From contig BROI01000003.1 of NCBI GenBank assembly GCA_027923505.1, positions 1,240,001 through 1,304,000 of the forward strand: a stretch of DNA of 64,000 nucleotides. The letters run 5' to 3'. Position numbers and translations under genes: made by a program. Shown in pieces: positions 3,060-47,735 of the stretch. The notes beneath the pieces were generated by a model. The model saw only the letters and a program-made list of their open reading frames with translations, was not told where the DNA came from and did no database searches. The DNA is from Mayamaea pseudoterrestris. Taxonomy: Eukaryota; Bacillariophyta; Bacillariophyceae; Sellaphorales; Sellaphoraceae. How positions within the stretch are numbered: the first letter of the stretch is position 1; every line of letters begins with the position of its first letter.

Positions 3060-5294
3060 CACATAGCTGCTTACTCCGTTTCCATAGTGGAGCACTTCAG
3101 CACCTACGATGACTTTAATGCAAAAACGATCTCGTGGACGATAACTAGTGCAAGTACAAGGACTTGAGTACAAGAAGAACTACGAGTGCGGAACATTTGG
3201 CTTGAAAATATTTGTCAGCGCCAGCCCTTTCCCATTACTTCGTGAATGCTCGTCCAGTCAAAGATTAAGCCGTTCATCAATACCCAGCGCTTATGTAGCA
3301 ATAGTCATTCGACATTATTATAAAACGCATAGTGCCTATTCATTTAGCACAACTTGTTGATACAAACTATGGCGCCTTGACGCGAATATGTGCCCGCGGA
3401 TGTCCCACGGCGCTGCCCAGCCACTTGCACAGCGCGGGAATGTAAAAGTAGCGCTCGCGCATGATGGCAACGTACTCGCTCGTGTAGTTGATCCCCAGCA
3501 CGTACCACTGTCCCTCGCAGCGAATGGACGGCGGGTCGGGAGCGTTGAATATAAGAGTGCCGTATAGCAACACGACCATGCCCACTAGTTGGATCCAGCT
3601 GTATTCATTCCATGATTCGCCGTATTTGCCATTCGTAAGGACATAGAATATGAACAAGTCTGTGGCCCAGACGGTGACAGGCCGAAAGTTGTCGAGTATA
3701 GAATGCCAAACACTGCTCATATCCAGCGTGACTGTGGAATGTGCAGAGGTCAAAGGCAATAAAAACAGTGGTAAGTTGGCAAAAGTCTCGGGACATTAGA
3801 GAGGCCTCATGTACTTACTCAAAACCGCAAACAGGTTGTAGGCGAAAATTGTTCCAACATAGAAAGCAAACATGATCTGGATCGACGGCGTATCTTTGAT
3901 CAGTTCCCATGTCGTAGCTGGATTCTCAAACGAGCCGCGATCACTTCCAGGGACAAGCATTGCAATCGGAGTCAGTACGACGGTGCAAATCAGTGTTCCC
4001 CAGAATCCCTCCATACCGAACAAGAGAAGCGGCGGCACCTTGAATGTTTCCGTCGTCATGACCTTTTCTTCGAATACAAACTGCAGCGACTGAATAAACG
4101 TTGCCAGCAGCATGAACAAAATACCCACCATCGTATGGTTAGAGTCGTCGGCGATAGCCTTGCTGTTGGCGTTCCAGACCGCCGCAAGTCCAACCAATGT
4201 GAGCGCCACAACGTTCCATAGAACTCCAATCCATTGAAAGGAATACAATCGTTGACCCAGCATGGGTCGCTTCAGCAATGCGACAAATACAATCCCAGAA
4301 CCTCGCAGCAGCTGATAGACACTGACATCCAGATACAGCAGACCAATCATGGAAAATGCAGTCGCCAGCAAATCAAACATGGCAGGGATGCCCAAGTAGA
4401 TCAACATCCAATTGGGAACGTGGTTTGGATTCGTCGATGCCGCATCCGCCGCGGCCGCAGCAGTCGCCACCAATGGCGTCGACTCCTCATCCGATGATTG
4501 TTGTTTCGTTGATATGTGTTTATAACCAGGAAACGGAAGCTTCCAATACACAATGATCCAGTGCAGCGGCAGTCCCAGGATCATGCCGACGAACATTCCC
4601 CACGTCAATGCCAATGGCCTATCGAACGAGTGTATTTTGCCACTGTTTGTCACGCCCTCCAGTTCCATAATGACTTTGCTGAAAATGGAGCAAAGGGTGC
4701 CGGCCGTCACGGCAATCAGAAACAGCATGCGCTCGTACGGGCCTTCCCTCGTGACATGACCGTGTGACGACATAATATGGTTGCCTGCTGTTTGCTTTTT
4801 TGTAGACGAACGACAGTGGAGCTGTTCACGCTCTCGACTTGGTGATTGGACTTTGGTGGAATCTGGTTGACTGTGAGGTTGTCGGAAGATATGGCAAGGA
4901 TCTCGAGTTTTCGAAAGAATGCTGAGATCCGACGAGACTTTGGCACGAATGAGAAGACATGAGCTACCGGTATCGGTATCTTACTCGCGCACTGTTACTT
5001 CCTTGCCTGGCTGACCGAACATGCCAATTTAAGAGACTGTGACGGCTATAAATTCTCTAAGGCTTTTAGTTTAGTCTGTGCTACTGGACCCGAGTACCAT
5101 AGTGTTCCTGGCGTTGTCGTCAGTTTCTCTACGATGCGTCGCCGGGATGCATCATCCTTGTAGCGCTGCTCCGGCAAATACACGCCAGCTCCTTCATGGT
5201 TCAAACAGTCCAACGCAAACGTAGCACAAGACTGACCAACACAGGTTCGAAAGGACTGGTGACCCTGCGTAATGCTGTATCCGCTGTTGTCGCG
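3060..5294. repeat. tandem duplication, copy 2 (2235 bp)
   Basis: Second copy of the unit at 825-3059. It ends at 5294, two bases before the left LTR of the retrotransposon, and its right part is the authentic C-terminal coding region of the SDH-like gene. Compared with copy 1, only the terminal ~95 bp (5199-5289) differ. Confidence 0.95.
3367..4773 (-). CDS. SLC35F6-like drug/metabolite transporter, copy 2
   Basis: Identical gene structure to the copy at 1132-2538, shifted by 2235 bp: exons 4773-3819 and 3731-3367, 87-bp intron 3732-3818, 439 residues, identical translation. The EamA-type ten-helix pattern and the EEKV and FRPVTVW elements are all present. The 272-bp spacer upstream (4774-5045) separates it from the stop codon of the SDH-like gene on the same strand and should contain its promoter. 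That spacer is duplicated intact, so both copies have the same 5' region. Confidence 0.88.
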
Positions 5295-6366: not shown

Positions 6367-7437
6367 ATGAGAGCGCATTTCAACCGAGTCCAACCCGCGC
6401 GACAGCTTTCGTCGTCTTTCGAAGCAAAAGACCTATCGCATCCAGTAACTCTCTACTTCCTCAAGAAGACTCGTTTCCTGCTTCAAAAGGACGAAGAAAA
6501 CAGACGTCAAGACTTGCAAAGACTTGCTGAAGTACCAGATATAAACACAGAGACGACGTGCGCTTGTTCTGTGTGCATCGCCAATACACAAACACACGTA
6601 CCCTCGCCAAGCAGCGACTCATCGCCAGCCAACGAGCAATTAGAGACATCGCCAACAAGCACGACGCATACTTGCCGATCAATCAATTCAATTCGCCAAC
6701 AAGAAGCAAATCAAGCGTCAGTTAGACAAGCGCATCGCCAAGACACAAGACCATCGCAACAAACTCTTCGCTCACAGAACGTTTCAAGCACTTACCAAGA
6801 AGCATCTCGCATCGCAACAGTTCAAAGCGTCGCAGACCGTCGTCAAGCACTTCTTCAACAACGAAACAGACAGCGACAAGCAAGTCAAGAGCGCGCATCA
6901 ACAACGCAACAAGCTTCGAACAATCTTCAACGCAATCGAATCACTGTTAGTCAAAGACGCAACCAACGACGCAACGAAACGAACAGCAATCGTCCTTACC
7001 AGCAGCGTTTAAGACAGCAACAAGCGAATCGAATCGTCACGCCAACCCGACAGCAAAACCGAACCTCCAATCCAACACTTCGAGTCCAGCCTCGCATCAA
7101 CGACACGCGCAACACTACAACTCATCATACACGCGATATAAACAGTCTTCAAGCTCAAGTAACTCGTTTAAATCATCTTCTTAATCAACAACAACGACAG
7201 CTGCACTTACAAGCTCAACGAAATCGACAAGTGACAAATCAACAACGTGTCCATCGTCGCGATCAACACGCTCAACAGTTCCACGCTCGTTCACGTTTTC
7301 AAACTCCGTCACATCAGCAACTCAATTGGCCACGTCAGCAACGTTTAGCTACCCCAAACCGTCAATCTCCATTCACTGACAACCACGTTAGCTATCAACG
7401 TCCGACCAATAGCCAAAACTTTTACTACTCATTCTAA
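6367..7437 (+). CDS. retrotransposon accessory ORF, Q/R/N-rich basic protein (356 aa)
   Basis: Seen: this is the first ATG after the LTR. The product is dominated by Gln, Arg, Asn, Thr and Ser. It has a short Cys pair (CACSVC, near residue 61), a coiled-coil-like stretch (NSLQAQVTRLNHLLNQQQRQ) and a Q/N/R-rich tail. The stop TAA (7435-7437) is eight bases before the Gag-Pol ATG, so both ORFs could be read from one RNA by reinitiation. It has no resemblance to a known domain that I recognise. The composition suggests an RNA-binding or condensate-forming protein, perhaps a duplicated or extra Gag-like protein; that is inference. Copia elements usually have only one gag-pol ORF. Confidence 0.7.
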   Translation: MRAHFNRVQPARQLSSSFEAKDLSHPVTLYFLKKTRFLLQKDEENRRQDLQRLAEVPDINTETTCACSVCIANTQTHVPSPSSDSSPANEQLETSPTSTTHTCRSINSIRQQEANQASVRQAHRQDTRPSQQTLRSQNVSSTYQEASRIATVQSVADRRQALLQQRNRQRQASQERASTTQQASNNLQRNRITVSQRRNQRRNETNSNRPYQQRLRQQQANRIVTPTRQQNRTSNPTLRVQPRINDTRNTTTHHTRDINSLQAQVTRLNHLLNQQQRQLHLQAQRNRQVTNQQRVHRRDQHAQQFHARSRFQTPSHQQLNWPRQQRLATPNRQSPFTDNHVSYQRPTNSQNFYYSF

Positions 7438-7445
7438 TCGCAACC

Positions 7446-10400
7446 ATGACCGACCAACAAGAAGACATCACTATGAATGCGCTTTACAAAACGCCAAAGA
7501 TAACCAATACCATCGAAGCCTTTCCATCATGGTTCAACCAGTTCAAGAATCATGCAAGAATTGCAGGCTGCCGCCGTCCTATAAGAGGCAGTCGACCCGA
7601 GCACTTACCTGCTACCCAGAATGAAGTCATTACTGATCCCGCAGCTAACGCAACGGCAGACGAAATCCAAATCATTCGAAACAAACAAGCGGAACGCAAG
7701 CAGAATGAAACGCTCATGCAAATGCTTTCCATCGCATTGTCGCCATTCCCCGAGCTGAACGACCATCTTGTCGGAGCAGAATCAACAGAGTATCCAGGAG
7801 GCGAAGCTTGGAAGGTTATCAACGCATTGGAAATCAAGTTTTCTCCAGACAAGTTCATGGCACCAACACTTTACCGACGAAGCATTCAAAATCTCAAGCT
7901 CGAACGACCAACAGCAAACCCTCAAGACCTCATCGACCTCATGCAATCGCAAGCCATCAAGTTCAACCAAACACTTCTTGCAGAAGACCTGATGGCTACG
8001 CTCATGAACAAGCTGCCGCCTCAATACTGCCTCGCTCTAGCGCAAGAGCAAAAGACCAAGCAACGCGCTCTGACCAAGACCGAAATGGAGGGCGTCGTGT
8101 CGACTATCTACCAAACGATTTACGCAGCAGAAGATGAAGAAGCTTTAATACAAGGAGTCAACGAGATTGTTCTATATGCAGCACAACCAGAACCGCCGCA
8201 ACAAGAAACTTCACGCCAACAAAACACTCGTCAGCATCAAGCGCCGCCAACTCGCAATGAACGCCCGCAAACCAACTATAACAACACGCGAAATCCGCCA
8301 TCATTCAAATGCTACCTTTGCCATCAACCGTATCATCGAAGTGCCGACTGCTTTGAAAGAGTCGAAAACGCCCATCGTCGTCCTCGCGGATGGAATACTC
8401 GCCTGTCAATCGAAGCTCGTCGTCAATTGGAAGATGAAGAAGCACGAGAGCAACAAGAGCGGGGTTTAGAACGCCCAAGAGAGCGTCCTCGCAATTCAAA
8501 TCGACAGCAAGACCGTCGTCTTCCTCAAGATGATCAGCAAGAAGACCGTCGTTATCGCCAGAATCGCAACAACGAGCGCACAAGAGACCAACCAAGAGAC
8601 AACGATTATCGTCGCCGAGATCATCAAGAGCAACCACGTCAACTTGAGCATCAAAACCATCGTCAAGAGCCTCACCCGCGAACCATCATGCGTGAGCAAG
8701 TGCCTCGTCAAGCGCCATTACTACTCGAACAAGGACTTGCAGCAGTACACGAAGCTCTTCAGTTGACTCAGCGATCACATCGCTCCTCTTCGCAACGTTC
8801 CTCTTCAAGCCGCCGTTATCCTTCTACAAACTCAAGGAGCGAATTTGCCTTCATACATGCCGACTTAGTTGATGAAACTTATCCAGCACTCCCTACTCGC
8901 ACTCCTGCAGCTCCAACACCGTCGCCTTTATATCCACAAACCAATTGGCGTGGTCTACAGCCACATCAGATTAAAGACTATTCATCGGAAGACGATTCAT
9001 CAATCGAGCAGCCTCCAGCTCCACCAACAACTCGAACGAAACGCACAAGACCAACGTCAAGCACCACCAACAAGAAGCAAGCCGTCGAATTAGTGTCTTT
9101 AACAAAGTCGTCCGCAACGAGTGAGTCACCAAAGCCAAAGCCAAATCTTCCATCGTCAAATCTCAATGGACGCAGTTGGGCATCCATATGCGGCGACCCA
9201 AGCACAAGTGATGAAGAAGAAAGTGACTTTGAAGACGAATTTGTCAACAGCAAGACTCCAACCGAGCAAGAACGGAGACACTTCAGCACTTTAATTCAAA
9301 ACATTGAAACACTTGAGCAAACGAAGCAAGAAGATGGGAAGGGTCTGCTATTTCACAAACAAGACGAGCCAAGTAAATCAGAGCAACAAGTCCACACATC
9401 AATTGAAGAGCAAGCAAGCAACCTCAACGATTCCTACCATGGCTACAACGCTACGCAAAGCACCAATAACGTCACAACGAGCAGCGACACAACTGAAGCC
9501 ACTAATCTTGAGCCAACAACCACAAACGCCAACGAATGCGACACACATGAGCGCACCGACAACGTCACAACTTGCAGCGCCGACAAGGATTCAACTCCAA
9601 CAACAAGTCCTCCAATTGAATTGAAAGAAGAAGAAAGTGTAGAAGAACTCGTAGCGACAAGCTTTGCGCAATGGCGAGGAGACTGGCTACCCAAAGACTT
9701 CCTTACAGCAGACGAGCTAAAAGAAGTCGAGCACTTGTATCCAACCTTTGCTCCAAGAATTCCAAACAACATTCCGCCACAAGCCAACTCGAATGATCTA
9801 CCGCCATTCCACGTCTTGCAAAGCGTCCTGTTCATCAATCCCCCACTATACGAGCTGTCAGACGCCATAAAAGTGATGTTTGCCGATCTACAAGAGTTCT
9901 TTCTCGAGCACATAGCCATGCCACACGCCTTTACGCATCAAGAAGCAATCGACTCAACGCGAGACCGCTACTACCAATACACTGGTCTCCGAGTCTGGGA
10001 TACAGAGCGAGTCGAAATCATCATGAGCAATCCTGGCGACGAAGAAACCAACTCAGATGACGCAACTTACGATTCAGATGCGTACCCGAGCAGTCAAAGC
10101 TACAGATCAGACTCCTTCACCTATGAAGGCTATCAAGCTTTTCTTCAATCCTGGGAGCACCGCAATCAAGCGCCTGAGCATGTCGTTTCTCGAGCGCGCT
10201 ACGAAACCACCATCCAACAAATAAAGAAGGATGAGCAAGACATCGAGACAAACCCTGCAAGCGCCGCACGACTGTGCATGCTTGAACGTTTCAGCCAAAG
10301 GCGTTTCCTCAAGGATCTCATCTTCTGGTTCGAAGAAATCAATGAGGAAGACGAAGAAGCACTGTTTGACGAACGTTTAAAAGTTGTCATTGATCATGCA

Positions 10401-13400
10401 ATTGCCAAGGAAGTCAAAAGACGAGCACTCGAAGGAACATTGCGAACGCGCAGCACATTAGAAGAAGACCTCCGCAACGTCGGCTTGGAATTCAGCAAAG
10501 ACTTAACGACTTTCAACTACCTCGATCAATTTCCAGAAAGCGAGAGAGAAGCAGAACGACAGGAACTACTAGACCTCCTTGCAGAACGCGAGGCAAGAGA
10601 CGCACGCGAAGCAGCAGAGCAACACGCACGCAGATACCAGCCTCCAGCTCGCAATTCAAATCAACTGCAACACGAAAGCCCAAATCCATTCAATGCATTG
10701 AGATACAACGTAAGCGCCAATGCCTACGCGGTTCGAAGAAACAACAACAACAACAACGAATTCGCCCTCGCAACTATCCACGAATCCATTACGTGTCCAA
10801 CCAACTTGGATATCCTGAAGCATCCTGAAATCTTCATTGGCGATACCGCAGCAACCGTCGACTGTACACCTCATCCAGAAGGCCTGTTCGATGCCCGTCA
10901 GATACGAAATGAAGGCATCACAATGGGAAATCAAACAGTCGCCGACATTCAAACCATGGCGAAGCTTCGCGTCGACGCCTGCGATCGATTTGGCAATCCT
11001 CTCTACCAAGGAGTCCTCAACAACGTTGCTTATGCGCCCGAATGCGCCTTCAATCTATTCAGCATCACTCAACGTTTAGCGACAGGATGGAACCTCCGCA
11101 GCGGCAACAAGAAGATCTGGCTAGAAAAAGAAAACCAACACTCCATCGTCTTCGACTTGCTGATTCCTACCAAGCGAGGTCATCTTTACTGCATGTACTT
11201 GAGACGAGTCATTCCAATGCCATTAGTTCAAGCGCCTCGCAACGAGTTTGCCATGATTGCAGCCAACTTGCTTCCGACACGCCGTCTCGCCTACAAACAA
11301 ATGCACGAATTGTGCGGACACCAAAGCCCCCAAATGACACTCGCAATTGCCAAGCACTTTAGATGGGAAATACACGGATCGTCCAAGAACAAGTGTGTTG
11401 CCTGCGCAATAGGCAAGGCCAAGAAGCAACCGGTCCCTCAAATATCGCCGCGCATCCGAGCCACAGAGCCAGGCGAGCGACTTTACATGGACCTCTCTTC
11501 ATTTAGAGTCATGAAGAGCAAATCAGAACTTGGATTCTCCTCCATACAACCGCAATGGCAACTCATTGTCGACGAAGCGACAGGCTACAAGCACAGCGCC
11601 ATGTACCGCACCAAAGGGGAAATCGTTGAGCCGACATGCCAGATGCTCTACTATCTCATCCAACGCGGCATTACAGTCAAATACCTTCGAATGGACAACG
11701 CCGGAGAGAACCAAGCATTAGCCAAGTCAATGAAGAGCTCCGCTTGGAAATTGCCGATCGAGATCGAATGGACTGCGAGAGACACCCCGCAACAAAACAG
11801 TCTTGTCGAAATTGGATTCCCGACGCTTACCAATCGCACGCGAGCCATATTCACAGCTCAAAACATTCCACCTTCAATCCGCTTTCATTTGGCACCGTCT
11901 GCTTTCGAATATTCAACCGACATGGACAATCTTGCTATCGTCGAGCACAAGGGCACTCTAGCAACTCGATTCAAACACTTCTACGGCACCGAGTCGCCCA
12001 TCATCAAGAATCTACACCCATACGGCGAAGCAGTCACTGTTGTGATATCCGGATTAAAGTCTCATCTAGCACCAAAAGGATTCCAAGGCATCTTTGTCGG
12101 CTACAGCAAAAATCACCCGAGCAGATGCTATCGCGTCTTCAATCCCGAGACCAATCGCGTACATGACGTCAAGGACGTCACATTTCTTCACCGACCGTAC
12201 TTTCAACCTAAGCCCCCGCGTCACGAAATCGTCACTACACCACTCATTGACGTCATTTCCTGCAACAGCAACTACAGCAGTCTTTTCTCACCGCATCACC
12301 ATGGGAATCTGCCGCCGCCACCCGCAAAATTTCCAGACGACAAGAACAAGAAGAAACCAACGTTCCACACAAAGCGCCTCCTAACACGATCTACCTCGCT
12401 GATTGATCTGACCGACCATGACACCCCAGAAGCATCGGAAGCCTCACCAACAAACTCAATCCAATCAGCCCCCGACACTTTCAACCCAACTGCACTTACA
12501 ATATTCCAACCAAATGCACATGCACCAGCAAGCGCGCAAGAAGAAGTGACGGATGCACCCAATACGCCTCAATCTCCAAGAGCGCATCCTACAATTACCG
12601 ATCGACAAGCCAACGCAATACAAAGACACATTGCTCGATTCTCATCAAACCACTCACGAGGATCACAAAGCTCAAGGTCATCTACACGCTCCACCCGATC
12701 CAATCCTGGTGGCTTGCGTCGCACCACACGAGAGACAAGAACACCAACTCGATTCGATCCGACCAATCCTGCAACATTCGCCGCCATACTTGCCGCACTC
12801 GACGAACGATTTGGCAATCGCACAACACTATACAACGCATGCGACAACGGCTATGACAGTGACCGATCAGCTGAATCAGAATATGACAAGTACTGCGAGT
12901 CTGACGAGCAAGAATTCCACCACCAACCATATGACGACCAGCAAGACGAAGAATCAGTCTCATCGAACGGGTCCATACCTCCTCTGGTACCTCGAAATGA
13001 CGACTACAGCAGCGCAGGTGACAGCGAAGCTCCTGAACTATGGGGCAACGAAGACAGTTTCTGTTTGCCTACACAAGATCAACGTTACGAAGCTGCCTAC
13101 GAGCCATCACACGAGCGCGACGACGACTCCGTATCATTAAATGATTCCATACCCGACTTAGTCCCAAGAGCCGACGACCATAGCAGTGCAGGAGACAGTC
13201 AAGCAATCGAGCTGTGGGACATTAATGCAGACGACGATGAATATGAAGAAGAGCTCACCCGAGCAAATGGACGTCCCGCACCTCAACCAGCCGCACCTCA
13301 AGCGTCTATCGAAACAGTGATCACGACTCGAGTCTCCAACGTTTGCAGCCCGACTCTTCAACTCGGGAAGGGTTTTAACCCAGATGACCATGAAGATAAA

Positions 13401-15842
13401 ACATCTATACCAGTCACCGAGACACAAGACGAAAGCGACGAGTCGACAAACCAGCAAATCGATCTACCGCCAGAACAACTTGCCATCATGGCCGATCTCC
13501 TACACGTTCCCTCTTCAACGATTCTCGACGACACACATACATCCGTCCATGATTCGCCATACCAACAAGAAAACGACCATGAAGACCAACAAAGCTTCCA
13601 TAGCGCCGACTTGATCCCTGCAGAAATCCATTTAAACCTCGACGAGACAAGCGAACCACCGAACGAGCCCACGAATTCCACCTTTGAATACTTCTTCCGC
13701 GACATGCCCAGCGCGCCGTCTAGTGCAAGCATCTTTTACGACGCGTCTCCCATTCCCACACTCGGAGAGTTTGCGTGCGTTGGAGCAGGCATTGGAGGCG
13801 GATTCATCAACACAGAAGAGTTGCATACGATCAAGTTCAAGCAAGCCATGGGCAGTCCAGAGCGTCCTGAATGGATCAAGGCAATACACAAGGAGAAGGA
13901 CAACCTCATCAAGCACGGCACATTCCAAGTTGTTTCACGCAGCATGATACCACCTCGAACAAAGTGCATGACAAGCAAGTGGGTGCTCAAGAAGAAGTCA
14001 AACGGCACGTACAAGGCACGAATCACAGCAAGAGGCTACGAGCAAGAGGACGGTATCCATTATGACAGCAACAAGATCTCATCTCCAGTAGCATCGCCAA
14101 CGTCCATCAAGATTGTCACAACTCTTGCCATCATGATGGGATACGAGCCACACATCTTCGATATAAGCGGAGCATTCCTCTACGGCACGTTTGACGAAGG
14201 CCACGAATGTTACATGCACATACCTGAAGGTTTCCAAGACGACTATCCACCCAATCACGTTTGGCTACTCAAGCGCACGCTATACGGAACTAAACAAGCT
14301 GCGCGAGCGTTCTGGGACCAACTGGTTAAAGCACTTCGACAGATAGGATTTGAACGAAGTGTTGCCGACCCTTGCCTGTTTTACAAACAAGATGGCGACC
14401 GCCACATGCACATCGTCTCGCACATCGACGATCTCCTGTTAAGCGGCCCTCCGGACATGATTGAAGACACCAAGAAACAACTTCTACAGCACTTTGACGG
14501 CGAAGACGGTGGACCAATGGACGAGTACATTGGTTGCAAGATTGAACGAGGCGAAAACTACATGCGATGGACGCAACCAGTCCTCCTGCAAAGCTTACAA
14601 GACGAGTTTACAATCCCTCCGCCGAGGCGCCAAGAAGCATGCGTCCCTGCTCAACCCAAGTGCGCCCGTCGCGTCAAAGAAGGCGATCCTTCCGCTCTAA
14701 GCAACAACAAGCAGACGACCCTTCGACAAGGCCTAGGCAAACTACTTTACCTCGCCCGATGGTCTCGACCAGAGACACTCTACGCCATAAATGACTTATG
14801 CCGAGCCATGAAGACGGGAGAAGAAGCCCACGAGAAAGCCATGTACCGAGCCATCCGCTACATGTGTGCAACACCAAAGAGAGGCAGACTCTTCCTCCCA
14901 AATCGCGAGTATACTGGCCCAAACCACGTCTTTATCATCAGCGCCAGAAGCGATTCAGATTACGCCAAGGATCCCGACAAGCACAAGAGTCATTCCGGTG
15001 GCATCACCTTCCTTGAAGGCGTTCCCGTCGCTGAAGTTTGCCGCTTACAGAAACACGTCTCCCTTTCAGTAACTGAGTCCGAAATGTCCGCAGGTACCGA
15101 CGTCATACAAGACATGCTCCACACACATGCCATTCTTCAGTCAATAGGCCTCAAAGTCCAACTACCAATGGTCCTGGAAATGGACAACAGCGGCGCAATC
15201 GACATCATCAACAGCTGGAAGACAGGAGGGCGCACACGCCATGTTGACGTACGCCATAACTTCGCTCGAGAGCTCAAAGAACACGGCATCCTCCTTGTCA
15301 AGTACATTGAAACCAAGAAGAACACGGCCGACATCTTCACCAAGAACTTGGACCTTTCTACCTTCAATCGCCATGCACGGATCCTAGTTGGAGAGGATGA
15401 GTACTACAAGATGGACTCAATGCCTGAAACTATCGCTCTCCAAGGGAAGGGTGCTGGGATCCCCGTTTTGGCCGACGAACAAAGCAACATTGAAAAGGAC
15501 ATCGACACGGTCCCAGCGGCACCAAGACACGGAACATCCCGTTCACGACCACACTCCTACGACGGCGAGAGTAGAAAGTCAGCCACTGGCCCAAACCCTA
15601 CACACTTCACCGTACCCGAAGAATTCACGACTGACAACCGTAGAAAGACTACCACAGGTACATCGAATACCGGAACCGGCGTACACAGCGAATGTTGGGA
15701 CTCTACAGAGCGAAGCCGTGCAAACACTACCAGCAGTGAAGACCATACTGCCAGTTCTGTAGACGGACGAGAGCCATCTCACCTACGGGATGGCCAGTAC
15801 AAAATGACACGACCGGTAGACAATATACATACGTATGAATGA
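7446..15842 (+). CDS. copia-type Gag-Pol polyprotein (2798 aa), ends inside the 3' LTR
   Basis: A single uninterrupted frame. Gag occupies about residues 1-270, with a CCHC zinc knuckle at C289, C292, H297, C302. A long Arg/Glu- then Ser/Asp/Glu-rich spacer follows. The protease-like region carries DTAAT at 1133 (family usually DTGA/DSGA). The integrase zinc finger has H1287, H1292, C1317, C1320, and the catalytic triad is D1349, D1417, E1455. A second acidic spacer spans about 1600-2130. Reverse transcriptase (RVT_2) has D2239 in FDISGAFLYG and D2328-D2329 in HIDDLLLSG (usual motif YVDD). RNase H has D2503/D2505 and E2546. Residues 2670-2798 are encoded by the 3' LTR. No frameshift separates gag from pol. 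The length is roughly twice that of typical copia polyproteins because of the two spacers. Confidence 0.95.
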   Translation: MTDQQEDITMNALYKTPKITNTIEAFPSWFNQFKNHARIAGCRRPIRGSRPEHLPATQNEVITDPAANATADEIQIIRNKQAERKQNETLMQMLSIALSPFPELNDHLVGAESTEYPGGEAWKVINALEIKFSPDKFMAPTLYRRSIQNLKLERPTANPQDLIDLMQSQAIKFNQTLLAEDLMATLMNKLPPQYCLALAQEQKTKQRALTKTEMEGVVSTIYQTIYAAEDEEALIQGVNEIVLYAAQPEPPQQETSRQQNTRQHQAPPTRNERPQTNYNNTRNPPSFKCYLCHQPYHRSADCFERVENAHRRPRGWNTRLSIEARRQLEDEEAREQQERGLERPRERPRNSNRQQDRRLPQDDQQEDRRYRQNRNNERTRDQPRDNDYRRRDHQEQPRQLEHQNHRQEPHPRTIMREQVPRQAPLLLEQGLAAVHEALQLTQRSHRSSSQRSSSSRRYPSTNSRSEFAFIHADLVDETYPALPTRTPAAPTPSPLYPQTNWRGLQPHQIKDYSSEDDSSIEQPPAPPTTRTKRTRPTSSTTNKKQAVELVSLTKSSATSESPKPKPNLPSSNLNGRSWASICGDPSTSDEEESDFEDEFVNSKTPTEQERRHFSTLIQNIETLEQTKQEDGKGLLFHKQDEPSKSEQQVHTSIEEQASNLNDSYHGYNATQSTNNVTTSSDTTEATNLEPTTTNANECDTHERTDNVTTCSADKDSTPTTSPPIELKEEESVEELVATSFAQWRGDWLPKDFLTADELKEVEHLYPTFAPRIPNNIPPQANSNDLPPFHVLQSVLFINPPLYELSDAIKVMFADLQEFFLEHIAMPHAFTHQEAIDSTRDRYYQYTGLRVWDTERVEIIMSNPGDEETNSDDATYDSDAYPSSQSYRSDSFTYEGYQAFLQSWEHRNQAPEHVVSRARYETTIQQIKKDEQDIETNPASAARLCMLERFSQRRFLKDLIFWFEEINEEDEEALFDERLKVVIDHAIAKEVKRRALEGTLRTRSTLEEDLRNVGLEFSKDLTTFNYLDQFPESEREAERQELLDLLAEREARDAREAAEQHARRYQPPARNSNQLQHESPNPFNALRYNVSANAYAVRRNNNNNNEFALATIHESITCPTNLDILKHPEIFIGDTAATVDCTPHPEGLFDARQIRNEGITMGNQTVADIQTMAKLRVDACDRFGNPLYQGVLNNVAYAPECAFNLFSITQRLATGWNLRSGNKKIWLEKENQHSIVFDLLIPTKRGHLYCMYLRRVIPMPLVQAPRNEFAMIAANLLPTRRLAYKQMHELCGHQSPQMTLAIAKHFRWEIHGSSKNKCVACAIGKAKKQPVPQISPRIRATEPGERLYMDLSSFRVMKSKSELGFSSIQPQWQLIVDEATGYKHSAMYRTKGEIVEPTCQMLYYLIQRGITVKYLRMDNAGENQALAKSMKSSAWKLPIEIEWTARDTPQQNSLVEIGFPTLTNRTRAIFTAQNIPPSIRFHLAPSAFEYSTDMDNLAIVEHKGTLATRFKHFYGTESPIIKNLHPYGEAVTVVISGLKSHLAPKGFQGIFVGYSKNHPSRCYRVFNPETNRVHDVKDVTFLHRPYFQPKPPRHEIVTTPLIDVISCNSNYSSLFSPHHHGNLPPPPAKFPDDKNKKKPTFHTKRLLTRSTSLIDLTDHDTPEASEASPTNSIQSAPDTFNPTALTIFQPNAHAPASAQEEVTDAPNTPQSPRAHPTITDRQANAIQRHIARFSSNHSRGSQSSRSSTRSTRSNPGGLRRTTRETRTPTRFDPTNPATFAAILAALDERFGNRTTLYNACDNGYDSDRSAESEYDKYCESDEQEFHHQPYDDQQDEESVSSNGSIPPLVPRNDDYSSAGDSEAPELWGNEDSFCLPTQDQRYEAAYEPSHERDDDSVSLNDSIPDLVPRADDHSSAGDSQAIELWDINADDDEYEEELTRANGRPAPQPAAPQASIETVITTRVSNVCSPTLQLGKGFNPDDHEDKTSIPVTETQDESDESTNQQIDLPPEQLAIMADLLHVPSSTILDDTHTSVHDSPYQQENDHEDQQSFHSADLIPAEIHLNLDETSEPPNEPTNSTFEYFFRDMPSAPSSASIFYDASPIPTLGEFACVGAGIGGGFINTEELHTIKFKQAMGSPERPEWIKAIHKEKDNLIKHGTFQVVSRSMIPPRTKCMTSKWVLKKKSNGTYKARITARGYEQEDGIHYDSNKISSPVASPTSIKIVTTLAIMMGYEPHIFDISGAFLYGTFDEGHECYMHIPEGFQDDYPPNHVWLLKRTLYGTKQAARAFWDQLVKALRQIGFERSVADPCLFYKQDGDRHMHIVSHIDDLLLSGPPDMIEDTKKQLLQHFDGEDGGPMDEYIGCKIERGENYMRWTQPVLLQSLQDEFTIPPPRRQEACVPAQPKCARRVKEGDPSALSNNKQTTLRQGLGKLLYLARWSRPETLYAINDLCRAMKTGEEAHEKAMYRAIRYMCATPKRGRLFLPNREYTGPNHVFIISARSDSDYAKDPDKHKSHSGGITFLEGVPVAEVCRLQKHVSLSVTESEMSAGTDVIQDMLHTHAILQSIGLKVQLPMVLEMDNSGAIDIINSWKTGGRTRHVDVRHNFARELKEHGILLVKYIETKKNTADIFTKNLDLSTFNRHARILVGEDEYYKMDSMPETIALQGKGAGIPVLADEQSNIEKDIDTVPAAPRHGTSRSRPHSYDGESRKSATGPNPTHFTVPEEFTTDNRRKTTTGTSNTGTGVHSECWDSTERSRANTTSSEDHTASSVDGREPSHLRDGQYKMTRPVDNIHTYE
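15442..15451 (+). other. polypurine tract for plus-strand priming
   Basis: AAGGGAAGGG directly abuts the TG that starts the 3' LTR at 15452, the position and composition expected for the plus-strand primer. Here it is also translated as part of the Gag-Pol frame (LQGKG). Confidence 0.85.
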
Positions 15843-38823: not shown

Positions 38824-40265
38824 ATGGAATCATCATCTCCTTCTCGTCGTACTAGCCGAGCCATCGTTTGGCGCTCGCAGATTGGGCTTGACACCTCCGC
38901 AAAGGAAGTCGCCACACGACGAGAAGCCTTTGAGGAATTCACGCAATTATATCCGTATCCGGAGGATCCAGCGTTGACTTTGAATGACAACAATGCCATG
39001 GATGAAGGAATGATTCAAAATGACAACTCTGCATCTCCAGCAGCAGCTGCATTGTCCGGTAGCAGCGACTTGGATCCCCTTACAGCCATGCTACTCCAAG
39101 ACCAGGCACTGGCGCAGCAACAACAAAACATGGACTTGGAGTACCGCAAGGAAATGGCGCGTCGCAGGCGCAGCAAGGATTTTCTGCAAGACAAAATAGT
39201 CGAGGAGGAATCCTACGACCGCAACCTTGTTGCCTTGCAGATTATTGACAAGGATTTGCATCGACTGGCGCATCCCCGTGGTGACGAATCATCCAACGCC
39301 AACACTGCGCGAAAGGAGATTTTGCGACGCGTCTTGTACGTGTACAACTGTCGACATGAGCACATTGGCTACCGACAAGGCATGCACGAGATTGCTAGCT
39401 GGTTACTGTGGGCGCTCGAACAGTCGGATGATGATGACACTATCGAACAAATGGATGCATCAACCATGGCATCGGAATGCTACTTTTTGACGGAACGCAT
39501 ACTCACCGACATTCAACCCGCCTACGACGTGGGCGGGCACAAGCCCATGGAGGGAATTTCGAAGCGCGTCATGGATCTCGTGGCCAAGGCTGACCAACGG
39601 GTGCGACTGCGGCTCGACCATCTGGGCATTCCGCCCACCATTTACTTGACCAAGTGGCTGCGCCTACTGTTTAGTCGCGAAGTTGTAAACGTGATGACGC
39701 TCTGGGATGTCTTGTTCAACGTCAAGGAGGATGGCTTTGGCTGGATGATGATTTTGGAGGCAACGGCAGCAGCGCGATTGCTGCAACATCGAAGCGACAT
39801 TATACGTTCGAGTGATGATGGTTTGCTGCATTTGCTCATGAACATGGCACCCGAACAAGATCTACAGTCAATGCTGCAGTATCTACAACCTTTGTTGAGG
39901 GGCGAGCCATTGGATCTTCCAGTCATTGAGGTGCCGCCGATTACTGCTGTAACGCAGGATGGTCCTTCTCCAACGAATGGCGGCAAGCGCAACGGCACTG
40001 GTAGTCAGACATCGCCACTATTTTCGACGCAAACGGTCGGCTCTCTCGCGGCTCACTTGACGGGTGTCAAGGAAACGATTGCAGCGCAGACGCAATCCAT
40101 TTCCAAGCGCTTGATGCAGGAATGGGAGGCCATTCAGGCGGAGAACCAACAGGCGCAACGATCTTATGACGATGGGATTTGGAACCATTCATTGGCCAAT
40201 GTCAATACAAACTCGTTTGATAGTCCGATTGGCAGTGCAATTTCCACTCCGCATCATGATCGCTT

Positions 40266-40310
<45 letters not shown>

Positions 40311-40530
40311 CAATACACCAAGTACGATGCATTCTCCAACGCGACGAAGCAACACATTTCCTCCTCATACGTGGGCATTCGAAATGGAGCATCGACTGGG
40401 CGTACTACAAAACTTTGTCATGCTGACGGAGCAACGCAACCGCGGATCCGTGGCACCGGCAGTGTGGGAAGCACTAGCTGACTTGGAAGAAATGCGACAG
40501 TCGATTGTGCAAACGCAGAATACGTTGTGA
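38824..40530 (+). CDS. TBC-domain Rab GTPase-activating protein, TBC1D5-like (568 aa)
   Basis: ATG at 38824. The TBC domain spans about 120-370. The arginine finger is in IIDKDLHRLAHPR (I-x-x-D-x-x-R) and the glutamine finger in IGYRQGMHEIASWLLWAL (Y-x-Q-G-M). LRLLFSREVVNVMTLWDVLF is the C-terminal TBC element (W-x-R-x-L-F...W-D). The G-Y-R-Q-G-M-(H/N)-E form is typical of the TBC1D5/TBC1D13 group, which act on Rab7-type GTPases in endosome/autophagy trafficking. A Gln tract of about 14-15 residues encoded by CAG repeats lies at 40268-40310. The rest of the C-terminus is Ser/Thr/Gln-rich and probably disordered. It continues in one exon. Confidence 0.86.
40268..40310 (+). repeat. CAG trinucleotide tract in the TBC gene
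   Basis: An almost pure run of CAG codons ending in CAA, encoding polyglutamine in the disordered tail of the TBC protein. Length is likely polymorphic. Confidence 0.9.
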
Positions 40531-41015: not shown

Positions 41016-42398
41016 ATGAAATTCTCCGTTTTTCAAATATCGACTCTCGCCTCTACAATTTTCTTCCAAAAAGCTACTGCCCAGACTCCTTCGGCTCTGC
41101 CATCCATGGCTCCAGCCACTGCCAGTAGCCCAGCAGCAGAAATTACTCCATCCAGTGAAGTTTCCGCAGCACCCTCACAAGCACCCTCACAATCAACGTC
41201 ATCGGAAGCACCGTCGCCCTCACCACTTTCAACTCCAACAACTGGAATGTCAGCAAATCCATCCGCTGCTCCCGTATCTCTTGCTAGTCCGTCGCTGGTG
41301 CCTAGTGTCTCGCCAGCGAGCAATGCACCATCGGCGTCTCCAGTGACCAAGGTTTCGGCTGCACCTTCCTCAACGCAAGTGTCAAAGCAATCAAACTCTC
41401 CCTCCGCTGTACCAAGTAATGCTCCAGTTGTGAGCAAGGGAACGCCATCTGCTGTTCCAAGTAATGCCCCAGTTGTGAGCAAGGGAACGAGCAATGCGCC
41501 GTCCACCGCGCCAGGAAACAAAACAACCAACACTCCCTCTTCAGTACCAAGTAAAGGAGCAACGAGTCAATTGCCTTCCAATGCACCCAGCAAACTATCG
41601 AGTCCAACTGTCGCTCCAGTGAGTAAGGGGACAAGTCGAGCGCCATCCATTGCTCCAGCGAGTCAAGAAACCAGTCGTGCGCCGTCGGATGCCCCGGTGA
41701 GCAAAGTAACTAGCAGAGCACCATCGGATGCACCAAATGCAGGAACGAGTCAATCGCCTTCGGCCTCCCCAGTTGGTAAAGCAACTAGCCGAGCGCCATC
41801 GGACACACCAAATGAAGGGACGAGCCAACTGCCATCGGTCTCCCCGGTCAGTAAAGAAACCAGTCGAGCGCCATCAAATGCACCAGATGAAGGATCCATC
41901 CTCGCACCATCCTCTGCGCCAGCTGCATTGATACCATCAATCAACCCATCCTTGCGGCCAGGCACATCGAATCCGCCATCCCTTGCACCAGTGCCTAGCG
42001 CGCTTACGTCCAAAGCTCCTTCGACTGCACCAGCAACCGAAACGCCAACCACGAATATTCCGACGACCCTCGTCCCCACCAAGGCACCAAGGACGAAACG
42101 ACCAACACGCCCTCCAACCACCCGCAGACCCCGAACGCGCAAACCAACGCCAAAGCCCGTGCGCGTACGTGTACCGCTCCGGAGACCGACGCGACGCAAG
42201 GCTGCCATCACTGTGCGAACATGCTTCCAAAAAGTGCAGACAACGTGCAACTGCTCACTCTTTTTCAAGGGCAGCCTCTGCTGGAAAGATGTCGCTGTGA
42301 ACAAGTGTCAGTCGCCGAGTCAAGCATACAATGACAATGTTTATAATCAGTATGAAAGGTTTTGTAGAAAACGAGGTACCTGGAATGGGTTCTTTTAA
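41016..42398 (+). CDS. secreted Ser/Pro/Ala-rich mucin-like protein with basic linker and six-Cys tail (460 aa)
   Basis: ATG at 41016. Residues 1-23 look like a signal peptide (FSVFQISTLASTIFFQKATAQ). Residues ~24-345 are Ser/Pro/Ala/Thr repeats of the form S-x-A-P-S-x-A-P-(V/x)-S-K-x-T-S-R, ideal for dense O-glycosylation or phosphorylation. Residues ~355-397 form a strongly basic Arg/Pro/Lys/Thr linker (TKRPTRPPTTRRPRTRKP). The last ~60 residues contain six Cys (TCFQK, TTCNC, SLCW, NKCQ, RFCRK), probably a small disulfide module. I recognise no named domain. The layout suggests an extracellular-matrix or frustule-associated protein. It converges with the R-x-L precursor gene. Confidence 0.75.
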   Translation: MKFSVFQISTLASTIFFQKATAQTPSALPSMAPATASSPAAEITPSSEVSAAPSQAPSQSTSSEAPSPSPLSTPTTGMSANPSAAPVSLASPSLVPSVSPASNAPSASPVTKVSAAPSSTQVSKQSNSPSAVPSNAPVVSKGTPSAVPSNAPVVSKGTSNAPSTAPGNKTTNTPSSVPSKGATSQLPSNAPSKLSSPTVAPVSKGTSRAPSIAPASQETSRAPSDAPVSKVTSRAPSDAPNAGTSQSPSASPVGKATSRAPSDTPNEGTSQLPSVSPVSKETSRAPSNAPDEGSILAPSSAPAALIPSINPSLRPGTSNPPSLAPVPSALTSKAPSTAPATETPTTNIPTTLVPTKAPRTKRPTRPPTTRRPRTRKPTPKPVRVRVPLRRPTRRKAAITVRTCFQKVQTTCNCSLFFKGSLCWKDVAVNKCQSPSQAYNDNVYNQYERFCRKRGTWNGFF

Positions 42399-42765
42399 AC
42401 AAATGACTGGCGAGTTGGTGTGAGAACGGGATAATGAAAATGCGCAATAACAGTAAACGACGGTTCGAGCAAAGCATATAAGATGTATCATTAAAAGTAT
42501 TACTATAGATGTATCTGCGTGTCACAAAATAGATTACAGTATGGCTTACTGGATATATGCTTTCGTTACTCGCCATTGCAACAGTTCAGACAAAGTGCAT
42601 GCAGACTATCCTGCACAAGAATAATAATGGATGCTATTCAATGCAAACAATTAGTCAGGCCCAGGTCAGGTTGCATTCAAACAAAGAAGGGCTGCAACAC
42701 TCACTTCCTCACACTTACCAGTCGTTTGCTGATAAACGTTTCGGAAATACAAACGATCAAGAAAT
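42399..42765. other. convergent intergenic region, no gene seen
   Basis: 367 bp between the 3' ends of the two secreted-protein genes. The open + frame that begins here (42557) continues through the antisense of the neighbouring repeat gene and is treated as a shadow. Confidence 0.5.
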
Positions 42766-44469
42766 TCAGACTTTTAGACGATGGCCGATACTGGTTCCAT
42801 CTTCACTTGCTCCGCCATTTGAGTCACCATTGGTAGCGCCATTTTCATTGCCGCCCCCGCTGGTTCCTTCACTACCGGCACGTTTGCCAGTTCCGCCATC
42901 GCTCTTTCCACCACCTCCGGCGCGACTACCAGTTTTACCTGAACCACCGACACCTCCTTCACCATTGTCCTGTCCTTCGCTTCCTCCATCACCAGCACGT
43001 TCGCCAGTTCCGCCGCCGCCGCCGCTTGCTCCAGAGTCTCCTTCAACGCCTCCCGCGCGACTGCCGGTTTCTCCATCCCCACCGGTACCTCCTTCACCAG
43101 TGTCGCTGCCTTCTTCTACACCGCTACTGCCCGTTTCGCCAGCTTCCCCATTTCCTCCTTCACCATTGTCTGTTTCTGTATCTTCTTCACCACCACCGGC
43201 GCGACTGCCAGCTTTGCCACCCGACGCCCCTCCGCCAACGGATTCGATGGGGTCATGCTGGCCCACCTTTAACGATCGACCGAATGTTTGAGCGCGACGA
43301 CGACCGACTCCCTTAATGGTCTTCGGACCTTCGCGCGTTTCGGGTTCCTTTGGCTCCTTCTCCTCGGGAAACTCCGGTTCCTTCGGCAGCTTGGGTTCCG
43401 GCATGTCTCCAGGCGATTCCTTCGTCACCTCGTCGTCATTGCGGATAGAGGCGAGGCGACGACGCTCTCCCTTGCTGGCCCTCGGTCCTTCGCGCGTTTC
43501 AGGCTCCTTTGGCGCTTCCTTGTCCATTGGCGGCTCCTTTGGCTCTTTGGGATTTTTCGATTCCTTCTCGACAGGCTGGAGTTGGCGACGACGCTCTCCC
43601 TTGATAGCCCTTGGTCCTTCGCGCGTTTCAGGTTCCTTGGGCACTTCCTTGTCCATCGGCGGCTCGGGAGCTAGCGGTTCCTTTGGCTCCGGTTCCTTAA
43701 ACTTGGGTTCCTTGTCGACGGGCGGTTCTTCGAAGTGAAGCTGGCGAAAACGACGCTCTCCCTTGATTGCTCGAGGGCCTTCAGGTGGCTCTGGTTCCTT
43801 TGGCGCTTCCTTGTCCATCGGCGGCTCGGGAGCTAGCGGTTCCTTTGGCTCCTTGAAAGCTTCCTTGGGCTCCTTCTCGACGGATCCTTCGGGATGAAGC
43901 TGGCGAAAGCGACGTTCACCCTTGATTGCTCGAGGACCTTCAGGCGACTCTGGTTCCTTTGGCCCCTCCTTGTCGGCTGGTCCTTCCGGCGCTTCCTTGC
44001 CAATGGGTCCCTCGGGTTGCAGCTGGCGACGACGCTCGCCCTTGACGGTCCGTGATGGACCTTCCGGGGATTCCTTCTCCGCTTCTTCCTTGGGCGACTC
44101 CTTGTCGACGGGCGCTTGCGCATGAAGCTGACGCCGCTCGCCCTTGACAGTCCGTGATGGATCTTCCGGCGATTCCTTCTCCGTTGGTGGTTCCTTGGGC
44201 GGCGACTCCTTGTCGACGGGCGCTTGCGCATGAAGCTGACGACGGCGCTCACCTTTCGGCGCCTTTGGCTGACTCACCATCAAGTGACGACGACGACCCT
44301 TGGTTGTCTTGGAGCTTTGCGGTGGCTCGGGCTGCTGCACCATCAAAAAGCGGTGCGCGGAGGATCGACGCAAGGTGGTGAAGAGTGACTTGCTTGGAGC
44401 TGCACCATCCTGCGACGCGGCTTGCGATGAAGCAAGCAGCAAGCAAAGAAAAGGAGCGAAAGGTTTCAT
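42766..44469 (-). CDS. secreted Lys/Glu/Pro repeat precursor with about ten R-x-L sites (567 aa)
   Basis: The first ATG (44467-44469) gives a clean signal peptide MKPFAPFLCLLLASSQA. Residues ~30-370 are imperfect repeats of 25-50 residues. Each ends in a basic box KGERR(R/F)(R)QL and continues with acidic/lysine/proline text (HAQAPVDKESP, KEPKEPLAPEPPMDKE, GPRAIKGERR). Tripeptides R-x-L: RFL, RHL, six RQL, RRL, RSL. The last ~170 residues are Gly/Ser/Glu/Asp-rich (ETGSRAGG units). Family knowledge: silaffin, silacidin and cingulin precursors of diatoms are secretory proteins cut at R-x-L. Inference: this is a polyprotein processed into repeated peptides, possibly biosilica-associated. No homologue is recognised. 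Confidence 0.75.
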   Translation of the reverse strand: MKPFAPFLCLLLASSQAASQDGAAPSKSLFTTLRRSSAHRFLMVQQPEPPQSSKTTKGRRRHLMVSQPKAPKGERRRQLHAQAPVDKESPPKEPPTEKESPEDPSRTVKGERRQLHAQAPVDKESPKEEAEKESPEGPSRTVKGERRRQLQPEGPIGKEAPEGPADKEGPKEPESPEGPRAIKGERRFRQLHPEGSVEKEPKEAFKEPKEPLAPEPPMDKEAPKEPEPPEGPRAIKGERRFRQLHFEEPPVDKEPKFKEPEPKEPLAPEPPMDKEVPKEPETREGPRAIKGERRRQLQPVEKESKNPKEPKEPPMDKEAPKEPETREGPRASKGERRRLASIRNDDEVTKESPGDMPEPKLPKEPEFPEEKEPKEPETREGPKTIKGVGRRRAQTFGRSLKVGQHDPIESVGGGASGGKAGSRAGGGEEDTETDNGEGGNGEAGETGSSGVEEGSDTGEGGTGGDGETGSRAGGVEGDSGASGGGGGTGERAGDGGSEGQDNGEGGVGGSGKTGSRAGGGGKSDGGTGKRAGSEGTSGGGNENGATNGDSNGGASEDGTSIGHRLKV

Positions 44470-46670: not shown

Positions 46671-47735
46671 CTACTCAAAGATGCTGTCCGATCGAAAGTT
46701 TTGATCCTCAACGCCTTCCATTCCCTTGCGCGAGTACAAAAAGTAGCAGACTGGCCGCGTCACGTCGCTTGCATTCGGCGTCCCCCGATGAATGGTTCTG
46801 TAGTCATACAGCAGACAATCTCCCTTTGTCAATATCCCATCCGTTCCTCCTGGCAGTGCTTGCTCGCCTTTCTTGTCAAGCAGCTTGCTGTACTTGTGCG
46901 AGCCGGCCCAAAACTCCGTGTAGCCAACGCTGCGATTCAAGTCAATCAAGGGTACAAAGACGCACAAGGCGTGCGTCGGCGCAGCTTCCTCTAAATCAAA
47001 ACTTGCCGATGCACCAACATGTACTCCGTCCGAGTGATAGTACTGCATGCCAGCGCCTGGCAAGGACAAGACGCATCCACACTTGACCAATGAACAGTTT
47101 TCGCCCAATAGTTCCTTCACCAATGGCTTCCATTTGCCAGCAGCTTCGAATTTCTTCCACTGATCATCACCACTTGCCAAATCCATGCGAAAGTCGAATC
47201 GATTATTGTCTCGTCGCATAATCTCCTTGTAATGCTGCTTGGGTTTCGTTTGTAGCAAGGCGTAGAGTTTCTCAAAGGTCGACACTGCCAACTCGTACAA
47301 TTCATCAACGTGACTGATGTTGATTGCGTCTTTTATGCCAACGAGTCCATATTGACGAAACGTTTCAGCGTTGGCATTCATGGGAAGCTCCGTTGGCAGT
47401 AATGGAATGGGAGTGTCCTGCAGGACCAGCAACAGCTCCGCCTTGCCAATCACCGCTGCTTGCGTCTCCAGTAATTGGACAATGCGGTCACAAACCTGCT
47501 CGATGGTTTGGACATTTTCCTTGTCAATGATGTCAAGCTTGCCAGAAATTTCCAAAAAGCCAAGTGGATCAGAAAGTGCGGGATGCACCAGGGAAGCGTT
47601 GCGATGATGCGTCCATTTCAGAACAAAGTCGCCGTGGTCCTTGGCAACACACTGGCAAGCGTCTCGTAGTTGATTCGTCGAGATGGTTGGCTGAACGGGT
47701 AAGACTGCGAAAAAGACTCCGTATGTGGCTGCCAT
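46671..47735 (-). CDS. phytanoyl-CoA dioxygenase (PhyH)-like Fe(II)/2-oxoglutarate enzyme (354 aa)
   Basis: First ATG in the frame is 47733-47735 (MAATYGV). The C-terminal half carries the jelly-roll facial triad: MQYYHSDGVHVG (H-x-D) and DYRTIHRGTPNAS (distal His), with R-x-V-C-Y-F downstream for 2-oxoglutarate binding. Between them TEFWAGSHKYSKL is the usual PhyH T-x-F-x-P-G-S-H segment. The first ~140 residues (including GKAELLLVLQD) are not part of the canonical fold. Substrate unknown: PhyH homologues hydroxylate fatty acyl-CoA or diverse small molecules. Confidence 0.83.
   Translation of the reverse strand: MAATYGVFFAVLPVQPTISTNQLRDACQCVAKDHGDFVLKWTHHRNASLVHPALSDPLGFLEISGKLDIIDKENVQTIEQVCDRIVQLLETQAAVIGKAELLLVLQDTPIPLLPTELPMNANAETFRQYGLVGIKDAINISHVDELYELAVSTFEKLYALLQTKPKQHYKEIMRRDNNRFDFRMDLASGDDQWKKFEAAGKWKPLVKELLGENCSLVKCGCVLSLPGAGMQYYHSDGVHVGASASFDLEEAAPTHALCVFVPLIDLNRSVGYTEFWAGSHKYSKLLDKKGEQALPGGTDGILTKGDCLLYDYRTIHRGTPNASDVTRPVCYFLYSRKGMEGVEDQNFRSDSIFE

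Follow-up and report, generated by a model that had tools for sequence, protein, structure and literature searches.

Within a 64,000-nucleotide stretch of contig BROI01000003.1 from the diatom Mayamaea pseudoterrestris (the window), we identified on the minus strand an open reading frame (ORF) of 567 residues that we read as a real, lineage-specific gene. As judged from its sequence, it would encode a secretory multi-peptide precursor that follows the plan of Sil1p and the silacidin precursor, is cut at R-x-L and probably serves the cell wall; we give this reading a probability of about one half. The parts of the ORF, and the ORF that converges on it, are as follows (positions in the window).

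42766..44469, minus strand: complete ORF, candidate secreted repeat precursor; 567 aa, third-position excess between repeats, A at -3 of the ATG
44419..44469, minus strand: signal-peptide-like N-terminus, aa 1-17 (MKPFAPFLCLLLASSQA), likely cut A17/A18, read from the sequence
44344..44418, minus strand: propeptide-like segment, aa 18-42, 25 residues with RFL at the end, from the sequence
44233..44343, minus strand: two short basic units, aa 43-63 (ending RRHL) and aa 64-79 (ending RRQL)
44125..44232, minus strand: repeat unit, aa 80-115, ending KGERRQL
44020..44124, minus strand: repeat unit, aa 116-150, ending KGERRRQL
43897..44019, minus strand: repeat unit, aa 151-191, ending KGERRFRQL
43738..43896, minus strand: repeat unit, aa 192-244, ending KGERRFRQL
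43579..43737, minus strand: repeat unit, aa 245-297, ending KGERRRQL
43453..43578, minus strand: repeat unit, aa 298-339, ending KGERRRL
43270..43452, minus strand: last repeat unit, aa 340-400, with the degenerate box KGVGRRRAQ, then GRSL
42769..43269, minus strand: acidic Gly/Ser-rich tail, aa 401-567, net charge -17, pI 4.3
41016..42398, plus strand: convergent neighbour ORF, 460 aa, with APS/APT-type repeats and a basic, Cys-bearing C-terminus

The frame runs from its first ATG to the stop codon with no internal stop. An earlier note on this DNA had claimed a signal peptide, and the N-terminus does look secretory: by eye it has one Lys, the hydrophobic core FLCLLLASS and a likely cleavage site after SQA, and a crude script also called a signal peptide with a cut point of 13, although this script is permissive (40 of 142 ORFs called). 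Two other targeting signals were considered and rejected. Under the ASAFAP rule, plastid targeting is expected to place a Phe after the cut, and here the likely cut is followed by Ala. When the R-x-L of the ORF was compared with the RxLR motif of oomycete effectors and with PEXEL, neither applied, as no Arg follows it here and the organism is an alga.

Behind the two short basic units lie seven units rich in Lys, Glu and Pro (K/E/P units) of 35-61 residues each, with Lys making up 10-17% and Ser 0-9% of each unit, and then the tail of 167 residues. Nine KG..RR boxes are present and eight of them contain R-x-L; the ninth, KGVGRRRAQ, has none within it, and RSL starts six residues past its last Arg. 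The boxes vary in length (ERRQL, ERRRQL, ERRFRQL, ERRRL), with R-x-L kept through these changes. Thus, the box KGERR(R/F)QL that the earlier note had placed at the end of each repeat holds for its R-x-L in eight boxes, but not for the ninth and not as a sequence of fixed length, whereas the Gly/Ser/acid tail it described is there at the length, charge and pI given above. Near 44028-44244 the repeat DNA includes two 54-nt copies that are 93% identical and two 44-nt copies that are 98% identical, and tandem expansion of the repeats looks partly recent.

About ten R-x-L sites had been claimed, and we counted exactly ten: RFL40, RHL61, RQL77, RQL113, RQL148, RQL189, RQL242, RQL295, RRL337 and RSL398, that is, six RQL and four of other kinds. 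Composition shuffles of the mature part gave a mean of 1.34 and a maximum of 7, with none of 20,000 reaching 10, and a mean of 2.48 boxes had R-x-L, against the eight of nine observed, when the eight residues that follow KG were shuffled in every one of the nine boxes (fraction reaching eight, 0.0001); these fractions overstate the case, because the repeat copies are related by descent and do not represent ten independent events. For R-x-L excess, the ORF came top (z of 7.5; runner-up 4.3) among the 142 non-overlapping ORFs of at least 150 aa in a 264-kb part of its contig. Across aa 18-400, 10 of the 15 Leu residues sit within R-x-L. The ORF ranked second, which has 258 aa and is serine carboxypeptidase-like by eye, carries eight R-x-L; the share of its Leu residues found in R-x-L is 29%, versus 62% in the target ORF.

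This retention of R-x-L spacing beyond what composition gives bears on a different and, in our view, rather doubtful reading, in which the protein is secreted but stays uncut, acting as a polyampholyte in the extracellular mucilage of a diatom that lives on surfaces, as an adhesive or as a stress protein, with boxes that bind acidic polysaccharide or a silica surface. The periodic basic boxes could serve as such binding sites, the charge-hydropathy rule places both the repeat part and the tail on its disordered side, the neighbour is a repeat protein too, and APS-repeat frames are numerous in the genome. Yet besides the kept spacing, the first R-x-L ends a propeptide-like segment at a place known from wall proteins, which argues for cutting.

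If the precursor is cut, the protease might instead read the Arg run. A kexin- or subtilase-like enzyme would then cleave after the dibasic or tribasic run and release peptides that begin with QL(H/Q), leaving R-x-L as incidental. RR is present in all nine KG boxes, as against eight for R-x-L; basic pairs outside the boxes occur only at 34 and 529; and 21 rows of subtilase (S8) matches were found in the organism's own genome. The Leu two residues after Arg, however, is kept in eight of nine boxes despite insertions and deletions, and RFL40, the first site, has its nearest basic pair five residues upstream. The P_proprotein domain is the mark of kexin and furin enzymes, and the own genome yielded none at E 0.001, a search in which an intron could hide the domain and the only named matching control was archaeal; together with the 21 subtilase rows, this speaks mildly against a kexin. 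Cutting at the Arg run seems to us unlikely, although RR and R-x-L share the same boxes, so that sequence alone does not fix the type of protease.

Two protease-like loci lie on the contig that carries the ORF, which is C3 in our numbering. One is a serine-carboxypeptidase-like ORF, by eye, at C3:1208741-1209517 and the other, at C3:1198486-1201257, has subtilase matches. Serine carboxypeptidases and subtilases trim or cut precursors elsewhere, but the target ORF lies some 73 to 84 kb away from these loci, a distance that suggests no link.

That the frame is translated looks likely from the way in which its repeat copies differ. In a protein-guided alignment of eight repeat units, differences at codon positions 1/2/3 numbered 216/200/479, and pN/pS was 0.36 overall, falling to 0.24 in the final 16 columns, where the box sits, and reaching 0.42 in the spacers. 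Because this alignment was protein-guided, we added an ungapped DNA test. In the repeat part, the full set of 11 reference-copy pairs gave 46/47/100 by codon position, with a single pair (6/3/6) lacking the third-position excess. The tail gave 10/14/21 over two ungapped pairs, a count that cannot decide the frame by itself because the third position is common to this frame and to the plus-strand ORF 42557-43291; the continuous frame does decide it. The five other frames across 42766-44469 have 9-24 stops each. Codon usage agrees with the minus frame, as weak evidence. The target scored 0.050, close to the 60 training ORFs used as reference (true frames 0.047, sd 0.026; other frames 0.002, sd 0.026, maximum 0.108; target ORF, 6367-7437 and 7446-15842 left out of the count), but one antisense frame scored higher, at 0.072. 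A non-functional frame, arising by chance from the repeats or as the antisense of the plus-strand ORF, would fit this poor separation of frames by codon usage and the failure of two candidate-limited searches to return the ORF from a database set with Mayamaea proteins, but it is very improbable given the third-position excess and pN/pS of 0.36 in repeats that lie outside the plus-strand ORF, the stops in every other frame, and a signal-peptide-like start preceded by A at -3.

Several other loci in and beyond the window deserve mention in their own right. A TBC gene (38824-40530) and a PhyH gene (46671-47735) lie on either side of the target ORF. The start of the 460-aa neighbour (41016-42398, plus strand) is secretory-looking by eye and was not called by the crude script. 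A search of the own genome with this neighbour returned 78 matches at E<=0.01 including itself, mostly weak repeat matches, and its Ser/Pro/Ala repeat was matched by giant open frames at about 450-496 kb of contig C11 (up to 5,440 aa) and at about 308-320 kb of contig C5 (4,196 aa). Positions 1400-2800 and 3635-5035 of the window are 1,401-base stretches identical at every base and contain the same 325-aa ORF; with a spacing of 2,235 bases, they represent either a very recent tandem duplication or an assembly artefact. On the plus strand, 7446-15842 is an uninterrupted ORF of 2,798 aa, a Copia-type polyprotein by eye, with a 356-aa ORF just upstream.

Searches for relatives returned only the protein itself. 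With the whole protein, the own genome gave a match to self alone at E<=1 (7 candidates scored), and the protein database gave none at E<=1 among the 7982 candidates sharing the most words; residues 18-116 gave none at E<=10 among 66 candidates. Both of these protein searches were restricted to proteins of 0.55-1.75 times the query length, and within them no diatom homolog appeared. There were likewise no matches in Pfam at E 0.001, in NCBIfam at E 1 or in PDB at E 1, in keeping with the earlier claim that the protein matches no named silica protein, and no such protein is named in the titles and abstract openings searched, all from open-licence papers. The protein set contains other Mayamaea proteins, and the two candidate-limited searches did not return the ORF from it; hence, the deposited gene set may lack this gene or may model it at another length. 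At the DNA level, a degenerate pattern for KGERRR was found at eight places in the own genome, four of them in the target gene and the other four single and scattered on contigs C2, C11, C16 and C21 (reversed control, 3+5), while a pattern for RRRQL matched too often to be informative (445+442 matches versus 655+612 for the control). On these candidate-limited searches, the best reading is that the gene is lineage-specific, a probable orphan.

The assembly comprises 30.6 Mb in 41 contigs, and nine of ten silicon-transporter (SIT) rows found in it were above the family cut-off, so the diatom setting assumed in the earlier note stands. One of these SITs, of 450 aa, is 100% identical along its full length to a protein recorded for Mayamaea pseudoterrestris. 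Three SIT units lie head to tail at C1:2970661-2974680 in a single open frame of 1,445 aa, like a triple SIT; multi-unit SITs occur in other pennate diatoms. At C18:392465-395070, short SIT pieces, two of them with internal stops, lie near a full-length SIT; perhaps they reflect introns or a decayed copy. In the excerpted text of PMC12159174, which covers 49 reannotated diatom genomes, 11,017 genes are listed for this assembly (GCA_027923505.1), and the organism, according to a paper cited there, is a freshwater pennate diatom.

Known wall precursors of diatoms offer a close parallel in layout. As excerpted accounts describe them, Sil1p of Cylindrotheca fusiformis has a signal peptide followed by R-x-L, seven tandem units (R1-R7) whose terminal RRIL or RRNL is absent from the mature peptides, and an acidic region; R-x-L also closes repeats in frustulins, cingulins and silacidins and has been proposed as the cut site of a specific endopeptidase (PMC4557024). 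Silicanin-1 (Sin1) has an RXL domain of 30 residues that ends in RRL after the signal peptide, the protease being described there as unidentified (PMC5525289), and in the part available of a further source R-x-L processing is said to await proof (PMC5647440). Our ORF carries R-x-L where these precursors do, with RFL at 40-42, at the end of a 25-residue segment placed similarly to the RXL domain of Sin1, and again in eight of nine KG boxes. It further shares with Sil1p the seven tandem units and an acidic region, although this region is C-terminal in the ORF and N-terminal in Sil1p (PMC4557024), and its start looks like a signal peptide. The resemblance to R-x-L-cleaved diatom precursors that the earlier note had suggested is supported as far as layout goes.

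The content of the units is another matter. Compared by description, they differ from those of Sil1p in being K/E/P-rich, with little Ser and no S/G-spaced lysine pairs; this bears out the contrast with the Ser-rich known peptides that had been drawn earlier. The silaffin spacing KXXK with X = S or G occurs 0 times in the ORF (11 K..K have other spacers), and the silaffin pentalysine cluster, five Lys in 12-14 residues, is absent, the maximum being four in 14. Lacking K[SG][SG]K and any run of 14 residues with five lysines, the ORF also departs from the silaffin-like proteins of a KXXK screen, with which, on the excerpt of PMC5501833, it has in common R-x-L sites and, by its appearance, the secretory start. 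The cingulins CinY and CinW resemble it in being repetitive, Lys-bearing and, as its N-terminus suggests for the ORF, secretory (PMC9650480 and PMC4557024, in excerpt), but the mature protein of the ORF, with 0 Tyr and 0 Trp, has none of the cingulin Tyr- or Trp-rich regions. The silacidin precursor of Thalassiosira pseudonana is likewise repetitive, with R-x-L repeat ends and acidic peptides, but as described in the same partial text the acidity of silacidins comes from Asp/Glu and phosphoserine (PMC4557024), whereas the units of the ORF are Ser-poor and Lys-bearing and become clearly acidic only after trimming of the box. The acidic Cys-rich domains of frustulins are missing (0 Cys in the mature protein), and so is the transmembrane helix of silicanin/SAP proteins, the maximum 19-residue hydropathy lying just below zero in windows that start after residue 20. 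With these testable content marks absent, membership in the silaffins, cingulins, silacidins, frustulins and silicanin/SAP proteins was rejected. The ORF is best read as a putative R-x-L precursor by plan that stands outside each named family.

For this R-x-L precursor we propose the following course. The signal peptide would direct entry into the ER, a propeptide of about 25 residues would be removed at the first R-x-L, and an endopeptidase would then cut every repeat at its terminal R-x-L box. This would release the acidic Gly/Ser tail, a pair of short basic peptides and a set of about seven disordered K/E/P peptides that are related to one another and measure roughly 30-58 residues. Before any cutting, the seven K/E/P units carry little net charge (-2 to +2). 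When they are trimmed of the Arg run and x-L as in Sil1p (for the last unit, of RSL only), their charges fall to -1 to -5 and their pI to 4.6-5.5, and the three N-terminal pieces stay basic, at +1 to +2. The peptides had earlier been envisaged as zwitterionic, a description that fits their Lys/Glu/Pro content and the near-neutral uncut units but fails once trimming makes the units net acidic. On these charges, most of the peptides would instead be acidic polyampholytes whose role is nearer to that of silacidins and whose negative charge would come mainly from Glu and not from phosphoserine. Most likely, and this is the least certain step, the peptides would be polyanionic partners of long-chain polyamines, or part of the matrix, in the silica vesicle or the outer wall. 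A role in silica is suggested by the kinds of protein in which R-x-L occurs among other diatoms, and action in the outer wall or mucilage is a live alternative.

A bolder proposal, which we offer tentatively and regard as improbable, is that the ORF represents a new class of Ser-poor K/E/P silica-matrix polyampholytes, charged through Glu and made from the same precursor as an acidic Gly-rich polyanion. If this is true, a single gene would supply several charged partners for polyamine phase separation with no dependence on phosphorylation, where the silica peptides described in the excerpted literature come from few species and rely on phosphorylation and modified lysines. The Sil1p plan, filled with such unlike, Ser-poor content, would suggest that it is the cutting plan that is kept, and not the peptide sequence. 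Finally, the near-identical boxes of varying length would make a clean substrate for defining what an R-x-L protease needs.
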